Below are positions 37,270-40,248 of a stretch of DNA of 48,364 bases, one piece after another. The notes under the pieces were generated by a model. The model saw only the letters and a program-made list of their open reading frames with translations, was not told the DNA's origin and searched no databases. This stretch comes from Dehalococcoidia bacterium (lineage in GTDB: Bacteria > Chloroflexota > Dehalococcoidia > Lucifugimonadales > UBA3495): the NCBI GenBank assembly GCA_022823505.1, contig JAJEIA010000144.1, positions 1 through 48,364 on the forward strand. The letters are read 5' to 3'. Made by a program: the position numbers and the translations under genes. The stretch's first letter is position 1; every line of letters begins with the position of its first letter.

Positions 37270-37812
37270 CTATCGATCCACCAGGCAGGCAATGACCTGG
37301 GGCGCCGCGGTGGCCGCCCGCTCCGATAGCTCCGCATCGGACAGCGTCACGATGGGGTGCTCGACGATTGCCAGCCCGTAATCCGGGTCGCCGCGCATCC
37401 GGGACATGGCGTGGGCCTGGCTCACGAAGGGCCGGGTGGTCAGCACGGTGGACGGGATCCCCAGCAGCTCGGTTTCCATTGCGTCGTGCACACTGCACGC
37501 GGTGCAGGACCCTCATTCCGCCGTGGCGTGTATTGCCACGTCGATGCTCTTCGCAGTGCGCTGCAGGTCCTCAATGCGCGCCGGCCACTGCCATCCGCCC
37601 TTGTTGTGCTCCACCGTGCCGGCGATGTCGTACCGCTCGCCGATGATGGCGGCGATGCGGCGCAGCAGATCCTCCGAGTGCGGCTTGTTGTTGGCGAACA
37701 GCCCGATTACCTTGCCGTCCAGGGTCGCCGGACGTTGCGCCAGCCGCGATGGCGCTGGCGGTGCGTCGTCTCGCGGGTCCAGTGTGACGATGGGCGAACC
37801 TTGCGTAGTCAT
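37270..37812 (-). CDS. UGSC-type selenoprotein with in-frame TGA (Sec100)
   Basis: Two adjoining minus-strand frames are in the same register and are separated only by a TGA at 37513-37515. Read through, the protein has 180 residues, with the junction ATAE-Sec-GSCTACSVHDAMETELLGIP. This is the hallmark of the UGSC family, where Sec (or Cys) begins the motif [U/C]GSC. Sec100 and Cys103 form a UxxC redox pair. The start is ATG 37812 with AAGGAGG 7 nt upstream; the N-terminus is MTTQGSPIVTLDPRDD. A stem-loop with a GTG apical loop starts 12 nt after the TGA, as expected for a bacterial SECIS. The host must decode Sec, but no sel genes are in the window. A disabling nonsense mutation is the alternative and is less likely given the motif. 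Confidence 0.82.
37483..37515 (-). promoter_or_regulatory. Candidate bacterial SECIS element with its UGA codon
   Basis: After the TGA (37515-37513), GCGTGCA (37500-37494) can pair with TGCACG(A)C (37490-37483), leaving a GTG loop. The apical GU is 19-20 nt from the UGA, within the range of bacterial SECIS hairpins. A competing six-pair stem CTGCAC/GTGCAG overlaps it. Confidence 0.5.
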
Positions 37813-37838
37813 GCGATGTCCTCCTTGCATAAGATGTA

Positions 37839-37870
37839 GATTACCCACCGAGTTTACCCAGCGGGTAATC
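37839..37870 (-). other. Hairpin in the 5' leader of the selenoprotein gene, at the border of the repeat field
   Basis: GATTACCC and GGGTAATC form a perfect 8-bp inverted repeat with a 16-nt loop, about 25-30 nt upstream of the selenoprotein start. It is also where the pentamer repeats begin, so it may mark the end of the inserted segment. Confidence 0.4.
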
Positions 37871-38345
37871 GTCTAGCCCTGCCGAGCCGGACCGAGCCAT
37901 ACCATACCCTGCCCTTCCGCGCCGGGCCAAGCCTCAACTAGCTGAGCCGATCCCCGCTCTGCCGTGCCAAGCTATGTTCGTTGATTGAAACCTTGCGCTG
38001 CCGCGCCATACCACGCCATGCCAAGCCCAACCTTGCCTGGACGGGCCGTGCCATGATCTATCTTAGGTGAGTTATGGTTAACCTTGCCATGCCACACCAT
38101 ACCGAGCCGAACAGCGCCCAGCCATGCCATGCCGCGCCCAGATAGGCCCAGCCGAGTCATGCCACCTGTAAACAGTTGTTGATTGAAAACCTTGCCATGC
38201 CGGGCAACACCAAGTCCTACAGATCCGGGCCATGTTTACCGGTTGCAACTTTCCCTGCCTAGCCTTGCCCGGCCAAGCATCGCCATGCCGGGCCACTCCA
38301 TGCCGCGCCGTACCTGGCCTTGCCGCGCCCCGCCATGCCTGCGGT
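37871..38345. repeat. Field of degenerate GCCNN pentanucleotide repeats in several blocks
   Basis: The sequence repeats GCC plus two variable bases with 5-bp phase (for example GCCAT GCCAA GCCCA ACCTT GCCTG). It does so in blocks at roughly 37875-37977, 37992-38055, 38082-38165, 38191-38212 and 38254-38342. Blocks are separated by unique-looking boxes, two of which are near-identical: TTGATTGAAACCTTG (37981-37995) and TTGATTGAAAACCTTG (38179-38194). A third box ends GGTTAACCTTGCC. On the minus strand all frames give Gly/Ala/Arg peptides with 5-residue period (GMAWLGAVRLGMVWHGKV), an effect of the 5-bp period and not a protein signal. No gene is called here. Confidence 0.85.
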
Positions 38346-38346
38346 A

Positions 38347-38949
38347 CTACTTGCGAATTGGATTGATGCTGACCGTCTCAAATCGGCCATAAGTGCCGCT
38401 CTTTTCCGGTCGCCAATCGCCTAATCCAATGCGCCGGCCAGCTATGTCTAGCCAGCCGCCTAACTGATCTTGGTCAACCAATTCGTCGTCAGCGTCCAAA
38501 CGGAAAGTTAGTGACCATTCGTCAAATTTGGCCCGTGTCCGTTCAATGCGGGCTTGCCCCACTTTTACCGGTACGGTGAACTGCGTGGTCTTGCCCAACT
38601 CTTCTACCGTAGCGCCGTAGTACTCCCGGTCGTAGTCAAACGAGATGATCTCGGTGACTATCAACCCTTCCCGTACTTGTGGCCCCTGTTTCATCTTGCG
38701 GGCGGCGGTTTCGATGCAGGCTCGGATAGCCGCTTCCGGGATTGTAGGCGCTCCGCTCGCGTCGAGGTAAAGGCTGATTTGGCATTCGAGTTCCCGGAGC
38801 CGTTCGTTGTCGGTGATGGTCCGGTTGGAACCACGCTTGCGGGCGATTTCTGCCTTCTCGATGTTGGCAGGGCTTCGGGTGTCGAGTCCGGCCGCTCCGT
38901 TGTGCTGGATGATGGGCCTAATGCCCTTGATTGTGACTTCGTATTCCAT
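38347..38949 (-). CDS. 200-aa phage-type protein of unknown function
   Basis: The protein starts MEYEVTIKGIRPIIQHNG with AGAGGAAC 7 nt upstream of the ATG. Features are KGIRPIIQHNG, ELECQISLYLDASGAPTIPEAAIRACIETAARKMKQGPQVREGLIVTE, KVGQARIERTRAKFDEWSLTF and a conserved-looking end IAGRRIGLGDWRPEKSGTYGRFETVSI. I recall similar proteins in prophages near recombination genes, but I cannot name a family or function; a RAMP/Cas7-like fold is conceivable from the GLGDWRP...GRFE ending but unproven. The gene starts inside the HNH frame and ends 1 nt before the pentamer-repeat field. Confidence 0.65.
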   Translation of the reverse strand: MEYEVTIKGIRPIIQHNGAAGLDTRSPANIEKAEIARKRGSNRTITDNERLRELECQISLYLDASGAPTIPEAAIRACIETAARKMKQGPQVREGLIVTEIISFDYDREYYGATVEELGKTTQFTVPVKVGQARIERTRAKFDEWSLTFRLDADDELVDQDQLGGWLDIAGRRIGLGDWRPEKSGTYGRFETVSINPIRK

Positions 38950-39230
38950 CGCAGTTCCTCTTCAATGCTTATTTTAAGCGCGGCCATAAAGCCGTATGCG
39001 TCGCCGCCGGTGCGGGTAAACCGGCGCATCGTGGTTGCAATTTCGTGGCACAGGTTGCACAGGGCGGTCAGGTCATCCGGAGTTGTCTCCCATTCCTGTG
39101 GGTAGTGTTCTGCCCAATGGTGCGCTTCAACTGCCGGTTTCTGTCCGCAAAACTGGCAGACGCCACCGGAACGTGCGGAGGCTTCGGCGCGCGCCGCGAG
39201 ATACTGCGGATGCTGGTAATTATAGCACAT
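38691..39230 (-). CDS. HNH endonuclease-like protein (C-terminus overlaps the next gene)
   Basis: The frame from ATG 39230 reads MCYNYQHPQYLAARAEASARSGGVCQFCGQKPAVEAHHWAEHYPQEWETTPDDLTALCNLCHEIATTMRRF. This is a clear HNH core with CxxC, the catalytic HH, and CxxCH. After about residue 95 the frame overlaps the 200-aa gene for 259 bp and becomes Ser/Pro/Thr-rich, which looks like a shadow translation. The functional protein may therefore have lost its normal stop or C-terminus. The start overlaps the 3' end of the companion gene by 11 bp. HNH proteins of this size are common in phages and mobile introns. Confidence 0.7.
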   Translation of the reverse strand: MCYNYQHPQYLAARAEASARSGGVCQFCGQKPAVEAHHWAEHYPQEWETTPDDLTALCNLCHEIATTMRRFTRTGGDAYGFMAALKISIEEELRWNTKSQSRALGPSSSTTERPDSTPEALPTSRRQKSPASVVPTGPSPTTNGSGNSNAKSAFTSTRAERLQSRKRLSEPASKPPPAR

Positions 39231-40248
39231 GGGTTTGCTTTTCCTGTGCGCTCGGTACCGCCACTTGCCGAATGACCGAGCGGCTGGAGCCCCAGGTGGC
39301 GATGAGGCTGACGAAGGCTCCGGCCATCCCGCCGCCGGGCAGCACCGTGATCCGGTCCGCCTCGGGGACCACCGGAACCATCCGGTCGTGGTCGAGTTCA
39401 TGCCCCATGCGTTTCCAGCGCATCCACTCCGACACCGGAACCCACGCCTTGTCGTGCAGGAAATCGGCCACCCGTTGCCGCGACCATCCGGCCGCCGCAA
39501 TGTGCCCCATCGCCTCCGGACTGATGACGCAGATCACTTCCGGCATGCCCGGCCCGAACGCCAGCATGGAGTGCGCGACCGGGGTCAGAAAATCGGCCGG
39601 GTCCCGGCCACTGTGCAGCGTCACCTGCAGCGGCGCCAGGGTCGCGAACGCCTGCACGATGGTGGCGTTTTCGCCGTAGCCCAACTCCGACGCCAACGAC
39701 GGCCACGGGCTGATTTCAAGGTTCTCGGGAAATGCAAATGTGATCTTGCCGGCGTGGCCGAAGGTGCTGTTGTCCATCACCACCGGAACTGACCCGTAGA
39801 AGTTCGACTTGAACAGGTTCACCGCCCGCCCGATGGCCGCGTTGGCACGGCTGCCGTTTCCCATCATCTCCACGCCCCCGTTCATCCCGATGGCCTCGGC
39901 GTAGGGCCCGCTCACCACCGTCAGCACCGTGGCGCCGTTGGTGGACGTGCTGCTGGCGTGGAGGTTGAAGCCCCGGTCCGCGATCGCCGACAGCGCCGCC
40001 ATGACCACCGGAAAATGCTCCGGCAGGCAGCCGGCCATCACGGCGTTCACCGCCGCCTTGCCGGCCGTGAACCGTTTCTGCCGGATGATCTCCGTGCCCA
40101 GGTGGTGGTCGGCGTCCACGCCGGCATATTCCAGCATGGCCTGCACCCGGTCCGGAGTGGGCGGCACAATGGGCAACCCGTCGGTGAGCCCGTTGGCGAA
40201 GTAGTATTCCTGGGCGTCGTTCCAGTCGGCGAAGCTTAGGGTGGTCAT
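39220..40248 (-). CDS. Conserved companion protein of UGSC (seleno)proteins
   Basis: The 342-aa protein starts MTTLSFADWNDAQEYYFANGLTDGLPIVPPTPDRVQAML. The TDGLPIVPPTP motif belongs to an uncharacterised family that I know as a frequent genomic neighbour of UGSC proteins. Other features are STSTNGATVLTVVSGPYAEAIGMNGG, ANAAIGRAVNLFKSNFYGSVPVVMDNSTFGHAGK and MLAFGPGMPEVICVISPEAMGHIAAAGW. Function unknown; a redox partner role is plausible. The last ~12 residues (PSAQEKQTHVL) look unlike the family and run into the HNH start, consistent with the gene's 3' end having been replaced by inserted DNA. Confidence 0.7.
   Translation of the reverse strand: MTTLSFADWNDAQEYYFANGLTDGLPIVPPTPDRVQAMLEYAGVDADHHLGTEIIRQKRFTAGKAAVNAVMAGCLPEHFPVVMAALSAIADRGFNLHASSTSTNGATVLTVVSGPYAEAIGMNGGVEMMGNGSRANAAIGRAVNLFKSNFYGSVPVVMDNSTFGHAGKITFAFPENLEISPWPSLASELGYGENATIVQAFATLAPLQVTLHSGRDPADFLTPVAHSMLAFGPGMPEVICVISPEAMGHIAAAGWSRQRVADFLHDKAWVPVSEWMRWKRMGHELDHDRMVPVVPEADRITVLPGGGMAGAFVSLIATWGSSRSVIRQVAVPSAQEKQTHVL

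Follow-up and report, generated by a model that had tools for sequence, protein, structure and literature searches.

The window, by which we mean the whole 48,364-nucleotide stretch of Dehalococcoidia DNA analysed here, is contig C113 of a 3.7-Mb assembly that comprises 164 contigs and is 87% complete. On its minus strand lies a frame of 180 residues (37270–37812) that runs from ATG to TAG when TGA is translated as selenocysteine (Sec, U). It holds a single TGA, at codon 100 (37513–37515), in the motif context TAE-U-GSC-TACSVHDAMETELLGIP, and a likely ribosome-binding site, AGGAGG (37820–37825, minus strand), can be read directly from the sequence just before the ATG. The same strand carries a gene for a second protein of 342 residues (39220–40248), separated from the first by an insertion (37850–39215).

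An earlier note on this DNA had seen two minus-strand frames split only by TGA, whose read-through restores the UGSC motif. We find the same single open reading frame, and the Pfam family UGSC (PF24696) spans both of its halves, covering residues 11–178 with profile positions 3–171 of 172 at 147.3 bits (cut-off 25); scored alone, the parts before and after the TGA reach 47.2 and 80.5 bits against the same cut-off. With the family motif present and the TGA at the Sec position, the gene adds a member to a selenoprotein family that was already known and had been named by 2008 (PMC2398784, in its accessible part). The gene product, scored with C for U, reaches 110.9 bits with NCBIfam NF041046, below the curated cut-off of 125, and we therefore file it under the Pfam family and not as an NF041046 equivalog. 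The earlier note had warned that standard gene callers would easily miss the gene; in an open reading frame listing (table 11, limit of 80 residues), this frame shows only its upstream part (37513–37848, 111 residues from an earlier GTG start). Ordinary calling of open reading frames cuts UGSC genes at the UGA.

Conservation and decoding of the in-frame TGA

Orthologues from the same genus carry one TGA each, at the same codon, in 13 of 13 genomes (88–96% identity; 49 genomes searched, the host's own included). The TGA also falls in the same column in 66 of 66 aligned UGSC loci, which were the best-scoring matches among those listed (L024–L089), a choice that favours well conserved copies. Two of these loci, L029 and L060, both represent the window's own gene, so that L029 was left out; as L057 and L083 are likewise one place, the remaining 65 Sec rows represent 64 distinct places. 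A scan of a genome collection yielded 55 CGSC loci with Cys at the TGA column, from Actinomycetota, Alphaproteobacteria, haloarchaea, Archaeoglobi, Myxococcota, Binatota and Bacillota; because the scan pattern itself required the Cys motif, they show that such forms exist and align, not how frequent they are. The alignment of Cys homologues at the TGA, for which the earlier note had looked, is thus seen, and the outcome it had feared, a TGA outside the conserved motif, did not occur, the TGA column being the Cys column of the homologues.

On a tree with 65 Sec rows and 49 of the 55 Cys homologues (49 in alignment A3 as well), five switches between Sec and Cys are needed, at least three of them forced by well supported branches; the details of this tree are unsafe because several branches are long. 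The window falls in a clade of 17 rows, 14 from its own genus, itself included, and one from each of three other genera of the family. The branch that leads to this clade is long (1.36 changes per column, support 100/100), which marks the window gene as a divergent copy of UGSC. Within the genus, 12 of the 13 available pairs entered a pairwise selection test (L067 was left out, its reference being offset). Synonymous divergence (pS) was 0.31–0.59 upstream and 0.25–0.54 downstream of the TGA, and pN was at most 0.09 and 0.06, respectively. As pN is low on both sides in 12 of 12 pairs, purifying selection continues beyond the TGA.

The genes for selenocysteine insertion occur in the same genome: the earlier note had pointed to selA, selB, selC and selD as the genes to look for, all four were matched, and the feared absence of sel genes did not materialize. 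The tRNA-Sec scores 66.4 bits, over the cut-off, and is called as tRNA-SeC with anticodon tca by ARAGORN; the tRNA-Sec model also responds in 14 of 14 control genomes, mostly below the cut-off and above it in five. The selA match reaches 544 bits and the selB match 307 bits, both over their cut-offs. The latter covers positions 2–301 of 581, and since its contig stretch stops about 15 bases beyond the match, selB is probably cut by the contig end. This selB lies at L012 (G000:C120:46905-47822), and a match resembling the SelB C-terminus is found near the end of another contig (L019, G000:C106:33141-33347). Finally, selD (L020, G000:C40:43713-44636) is matched at 373.8 bits, over the cut-off, and holds one in-frame TGA itself, so that the selD of the host genome is probably a selenoprotein gene too.

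The candidate SECIS hairpin lies at 37485–37499 on the minus strand and is identified by a consensus structure and by frozen synonymous sites. Run on the 65 Sec rows, RNAalifold returned one structure, a 6-bp hairpin formed by nucleotides 17–22 and 26–31 counted from the U of UGA. In the window its stem, CGUGCA/UGCACG, pairs 37499–37494 with 37490–37485 around the loop GUG (37493–37491), with a spacing of 19 nt between UGA and loop. The earlier note had placed a hairpin with GU in its loop 12 nt after the UGA; hairpin and GU loop are real, and the stem starts 13 nt after. According to the accessible part of PMC13188914, a bacterial SECIS has a loop of 3–9 nt, an upper stem of 4–16 bp, a G in the first two loop positions and a spacing of 16–37 nt; the window hairpin, with its 3-nt GUG loop, 6-bp stem and 19-nt spacing, lies within all of these limits. 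The plausible SECIS of the earlier note is supported by published rules and by conserved synonymous sites, at a single-sequence stability with z about 0.

Single-sequence folding recovered the hairpin in two of three stretches, with no excess stability over shuffles (z from –0.20 to 0.15). With z-scores of about 0, it was dropped as proof of a SECIS and the case rests on comparison. Rfam reported only a tRNA at gathering threshold in the window. Of the 65 Sec rows, 60 carry the hairpin core GTGCAGTNTGCAC and 64 have GU as the first two loop bases; neither is found in any of the 55 Cys loci. Codon choice is the cleaner test, because the Cys proteins also differ in the residues of the hairpin region. 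The Ser at Sec+7 is written AGT in 62 of 62 rows, a codon that accounts for 4% of the 573 Ser codons elsewhere in these genes; Val at +8 is GTG in 55 of 55 (background 44%) and Ala at +5 is GCG in 37 of 37 (background 29%). Across the hairpin codons, +5 to +10, we counted zero changes, synonymous or not, in 12 of 12 genus pairs.

Covariation adds little by itself, because the hairpin hardly varies. When a seventh pair (16–32) is included, which is not formed in the window nor in 27 of 51 distinct rows, two pairs change on both sides yet stay paired, and each measure was reached by 0 to 4 of 500 shuffles. By the share of cells that are paired, the true register (91.6%) comes ahead of every slid control (next 74.8%). 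A slide of +3 equals its covariation score (0.049) and exceeds it on double-change cells (7 vs 3), and a slide of –1 ties with it for both double-change cells and pair types. Taken together, the comparative evidence strongly suggests that the hairpin is held by selection.

Comparison shows a sequence apparently built for SelB-dependent Sec insertion at UGA codon 100, given the machinery genes, the hairpin under selection and the selection that persists beyond the UGA. The TGA at 37513–37515 thus very probably encodes selenocysteine, and the gene is best read as a genuine UGSC selenoprotein gene. A decaying UGSC gene, left in two fragments by a true stop, would agree with the listing of only the upstream part at a limit of at least 80 residues, with a related copy without the Sec motif in another genome (G009) and with the insertion that splits the gene from its partner in this genome. 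We consider it highly improbable, since the TGA occupies the same codon in all 13 orthologues, selection acts on both sides of it in all 12 pairs tested, the SECIS is conserved and the sel genes are present. Still less credible is a UGA that encodes a residue other than Sec, for instance through a suppressor tRNA or a reassigned code, which would suit a UGA open in frame but not the presence, at this site in the homologues found, of Cys, the usual Sec counterpart, nor that of tRNA-Sec, selA, selB and selD, and which would leave a conserved SECIS purposeless.

UGSC copies in the host genome and its relatives

Seven UGSC copies, with one in-frame TGA each, are found in the host genome. The 13 other genomes of the genus hold 6–10 UGSC matches each, and up to 13 occur within the family, counts of matches that were not each checked for Sec; 94 of the 147 genomes searched, the host's own included, have a match. 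Two small PrdB-like genes of the host genome also contain one in-frame TGA each (L209, G000:C56:2574-3185, and G000:C33:63112-63696). Their motifs are UPLC and UPRC, and contig C33 also carries a UGSC copy, at a distance of about 9 kb from the second gene. Selenoprotein-rich organisms are defined by at least six selenoprotein genes in the accessible part of PMC5029168, and with its UGSC copies, selD and the two PrdB-like genes with TGA the host genome would count among them. The UGSC row of the 2016 table in that part of the source gives 26 and 33, which we read as organisms and genes; against these figures stand seven TGA-bearing copies in one genome. No UGSC study is evident in the accessible parts of the literature on selenoproteins of SAR202, Dehalococcoidia or Chloroflexota.

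Two copies depart from the common pattern. The copy L030 (1489–3207; G000:C33:72229) is a fusion of UGSC and partner with the motif UGGC in place of UGSC, and the hairpin after its UGA differs in sequence, having a paired stem and no GU loop. In genome G009, L182 (G009:C45:46597-47109) is a UGSC copy without the Sec motif, the only match without a stop among the matches listed. Its frame reads LITCSSC where L024 reads LITGVGDUGSCSSC, an apparent in-frame deletion of 21 nt that is either a real loss or an assembly fault.

The partner protein and its genomic surroundings

The second protein of the window (39220–40248, minus strand) belongs to no named family and was recognized by tblastn through 36% identity to the partner beside another UGSC copy. 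Its gene lies upstream of UGSC and had gone unmentioned in the earlier note. It had no match in Pfam, NCBIfam or PHROGs, and none of four homologues of it rose over the cut-offs of Pfam or NCBIfam. Such partners have about 350 residues, share motifs such as WTDGLPVVPPT and NAVMAGC, and lie near most UGSC genes. By tblastn, each of the 55 Cys loci has a partner, which is fused C-terminally to UGSC in 28 of them and is a separate protein in the other 27; a partner was also seen in six of six plasmid regions read, from seven plasmid records. Among the Sec rows, 61 of 65 have one: 57 in the fetched flanks, the window at 39220–40248, and three in wider stretches. The partners of L055, L082 and L087 lie within about 3 kb, one of them on the other strand; in the stretches read for L031, L037, L073 (a same-genus orthologue) and L086, the remaining four of the 65, no partner was found. 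Comparison shows UGSC to be accompanied by a conserved second protein, in most cases encoded close by or as a fusion. We give the joint claim, a UGSC selenoprotein accompanied by a conserved second protein, a probability of roughly 0.92. A fusion of UGSC with a domain called Unknown_1 was reported previously (Zhang and Gladyshev, 2008; PMC2398784, accessible part), and Unknown_1 is probably the partner described here. On two haloarchaeal plasmids (L165 and L170), a Cys-form UGSC has a partner homologue on both sides.

The insertion at 37850–39215 (minus strand) has alignment-based borders at about 37828 and 39250, and the last ten or so residues of the window partner are encoded by it, as judged from where the alignment ends. 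In the window, partner and UGSC are consequently 1.4 kb apart, whereas in 12 of 13 same-genus loci they are separated by roughly 50–200 nt and the insertion is absent, the 13th being L073. The insertion holds an HNH-like open reading frame (phrog_144, 3.4e-8) and another at 38347–38949 (phrog_4652, 2.3e-34). Beside these two phage-type frames lie about 500 nt of a degenerate, GGC-rich five-base repeat (37850–38345), whose autocorrelation is 0.46 at periods 5 and 15, 0.43 at period 10 and 0.19–0.28 at the other periods from 2 to 14. Among 15 genomes searched (10 of this genus, the host's own included), the stretch was found only in the window itself. The insertion is phage-like and splits an otherwise conserved gene pair.

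The window UGSC gene faces a GFO/IDH/MocA oxidoreductase gene on the other strand. For the Cys loci, neighbours were taken from a crude gene caller that misplaced some genes, and the counts that follow come with no background rate: CoA-transferase III genes occur near 13 of the 55, acyl-CoA dehydrogenase and enoyl-CoA hydratase genes near eight each, and thioredoxin and disulfide reductase genes, few in number, near three each. Small NifU-like proteins, in two clusters of which one is under the Pfam cut-off, are encoded in eight of the 55 loci (L131, L137, L143, L150, L160, L138, L155 and L164), near fused Cys UGSC-partner genes and mostly just upstream of them. On an Arthrobacter plasmid the gene order is trxB-trxA-partner-UGSC; glycine reductase operons also carry trxB and trxA.

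Predicted fold, possible function and known counterparts

In the predicted model of UGSC (pLDDT 92.6), strand and helix alternate five times and the UxxC motif follows the third strand. This model points to a Rossmann/flavodoxin-like fold and not to the thioredoxin-like one suggested in 2008. Foldseek and VIA-align returned broad Rossmann/flavodoxin-like matches, and for the fusion model the listed matches were taken up by its UGSC domain; PrdB/GrdB and thioredoxin structures were absent among the best 50 matches listed per search, which carries no weight against either. Sequence searches of the PDB gave no convincing relative, with best E-values of 0.63 for the UGSC protein and 0.18 for its alignment, and nothing up to E 1 for the alignment of the fusion.

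A link to PrdB-like selenoproteins comes from hhalign, which aligned 87 UGSC with 33 PrdB-like rows at probability 89 (P 2.3e-6) and placed Sec on Sec; a first, narrow PrdB-like set, before both alignments were widened, had given a P of only 0.028. The strongest control, a D-2-hydroxyacid dehydrogenase with a Rossmann domain (one of 17 control profiles), scored 36.6 vs 45.3 for the PrdB-like set, so that part of the latter score may reflect a common fold; the other 22 controls scored 10.8–22.6. UGSC and PrdB-like proteins have in common an ungapped UxxC-x11-E-xx-G. The site was found in 28 of 30 PrdB-like proteins, with the C in 27, the E in 27 and the G in 25. In UGSC itself, every row counted (65 Sec, 49 Cys) retains UxxC or CxxC. 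The PrdB-like proteins used here fall under the PrdB cut-off (none of 201 genomes over it). The window protein matched only PF24696 and NF041046, with no hit to PF07355 at E up to 0.1 in Pfam and none to TIGR04483, and we therefore do not file it as a member of GrdB/PrdB. Compared by hhalign with PrdB-like proteins, UGSC and GrdE, the partner gave nothing (GrdE, a single sequence, P 0.82). On these profile and motif data we lean towards homology of UGSC with PrdB/GrdB, having lowered an originally firmer estimate because the strongest control was a Rossmann dehydrogenase. The redox role that the earlier note had drawn from UxxC remains plausible, and it can be sharpened in that the nearest characterized kind found, by hhalign and shared spacing, is PrdB-like and not thioredoxin.

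The most likely, though tentative, view of how UGSC and its partner might work, which we hold at somewhat less than even odds, is that UGSC would supply the selenol as one subunit of a two-part reductase. The UxxC pair of UGSC would sit at the N-terminus of the helix after the third strand of the predicted Rossmann/flavodoxin-like fold, in a domain probably related at a distance to the PrdB-like Sec domain. The selenolate would attack a substrate held together with the partner subunit and form a Se-substrate bond; release could then occur through a Se-S bridge with Cys103, and recharging by thioredoxin or another dithiol. A bolder proposal, and a more doubtful one, is that UGSC and partner form a third branch of the glycine/proline-reductase-type selenoenzymes. 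Such enzymes would be reductases of two subunits, in many cases fused, and would cleave a C-N, C-O or C-X bond via a selenoether intermediate; in Cys form they might have reached actinobacteria, sphingomonads and haloarchaea, and in the host genome they would have expanded to seven Sec copies, each perhaps for a different substrate.

Alternatively, UGSC could be a real selenoprotein that binds or delivers selenium or a metal, or a regulator, and not a reductase subunit. No substrate is identifiable and the accessible parts of the sources give no tested function for the UGSC family, which would suit such a role; nevertheless, we find it somewhat less likely than a reductase subunit, as the retention of UxxC or CxxC in every Sec and Cys row counted, together with the PrdB-like signature, fits catalysis, and some Cys loci lie among CoA-transferase and acyl-CoA genes. 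In a thioredoxin fold, the CxxC follows the first central strand and the final strands run antiparallel; the predicted UGSC model, with its five alternations of strand and helix and UxxC after the third strand, speaks against such a fold, and so does the alignment with PrdB-like proteins. A thioredoxin-fold thiol oxidoreductase with the partner as its client is thus quite improbable, even though UGSC has a UxxC motif and a Trx-like fold was termed 'likely' by Zhang and Gladyshev (2008; PMC2398784, accessible part).

Several known systems can be set beside this locus. In the fusion of UGSC with Unknown_1, as described in the accessible part of PMC2398784, UGSC is likewise fused to a conserved extra domain; beyond that report, the partner is found here in all 55 Cys loci and 61 of 65 Sec rows. 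The window hairpin resembles the SECIS of the E. coli fdhF type in lying just after the UGA and in its apical GU, but differs from it in that the consensus has a 3-nt loop and a stem of only 6 bp, with no bulged U seen. With PrdB/GrdB (TIGR04483, PF07355), UGSC shares UxxC and, without a gap in register, a Glu (+15) and a Gly (+18) counted from Sec, whereas the alignment spans only the second half of UGSC and the partner has no similarity to the one GrdE tried. PrdB and GrdB work with a second, pyruvoyl subunit, PrdA or GrdE, and UGSC, too, comes with a second protein. This conserved partner, together with the possible remote link to proline reductase, gives the UGSC family a testable enzyme hypothesis.
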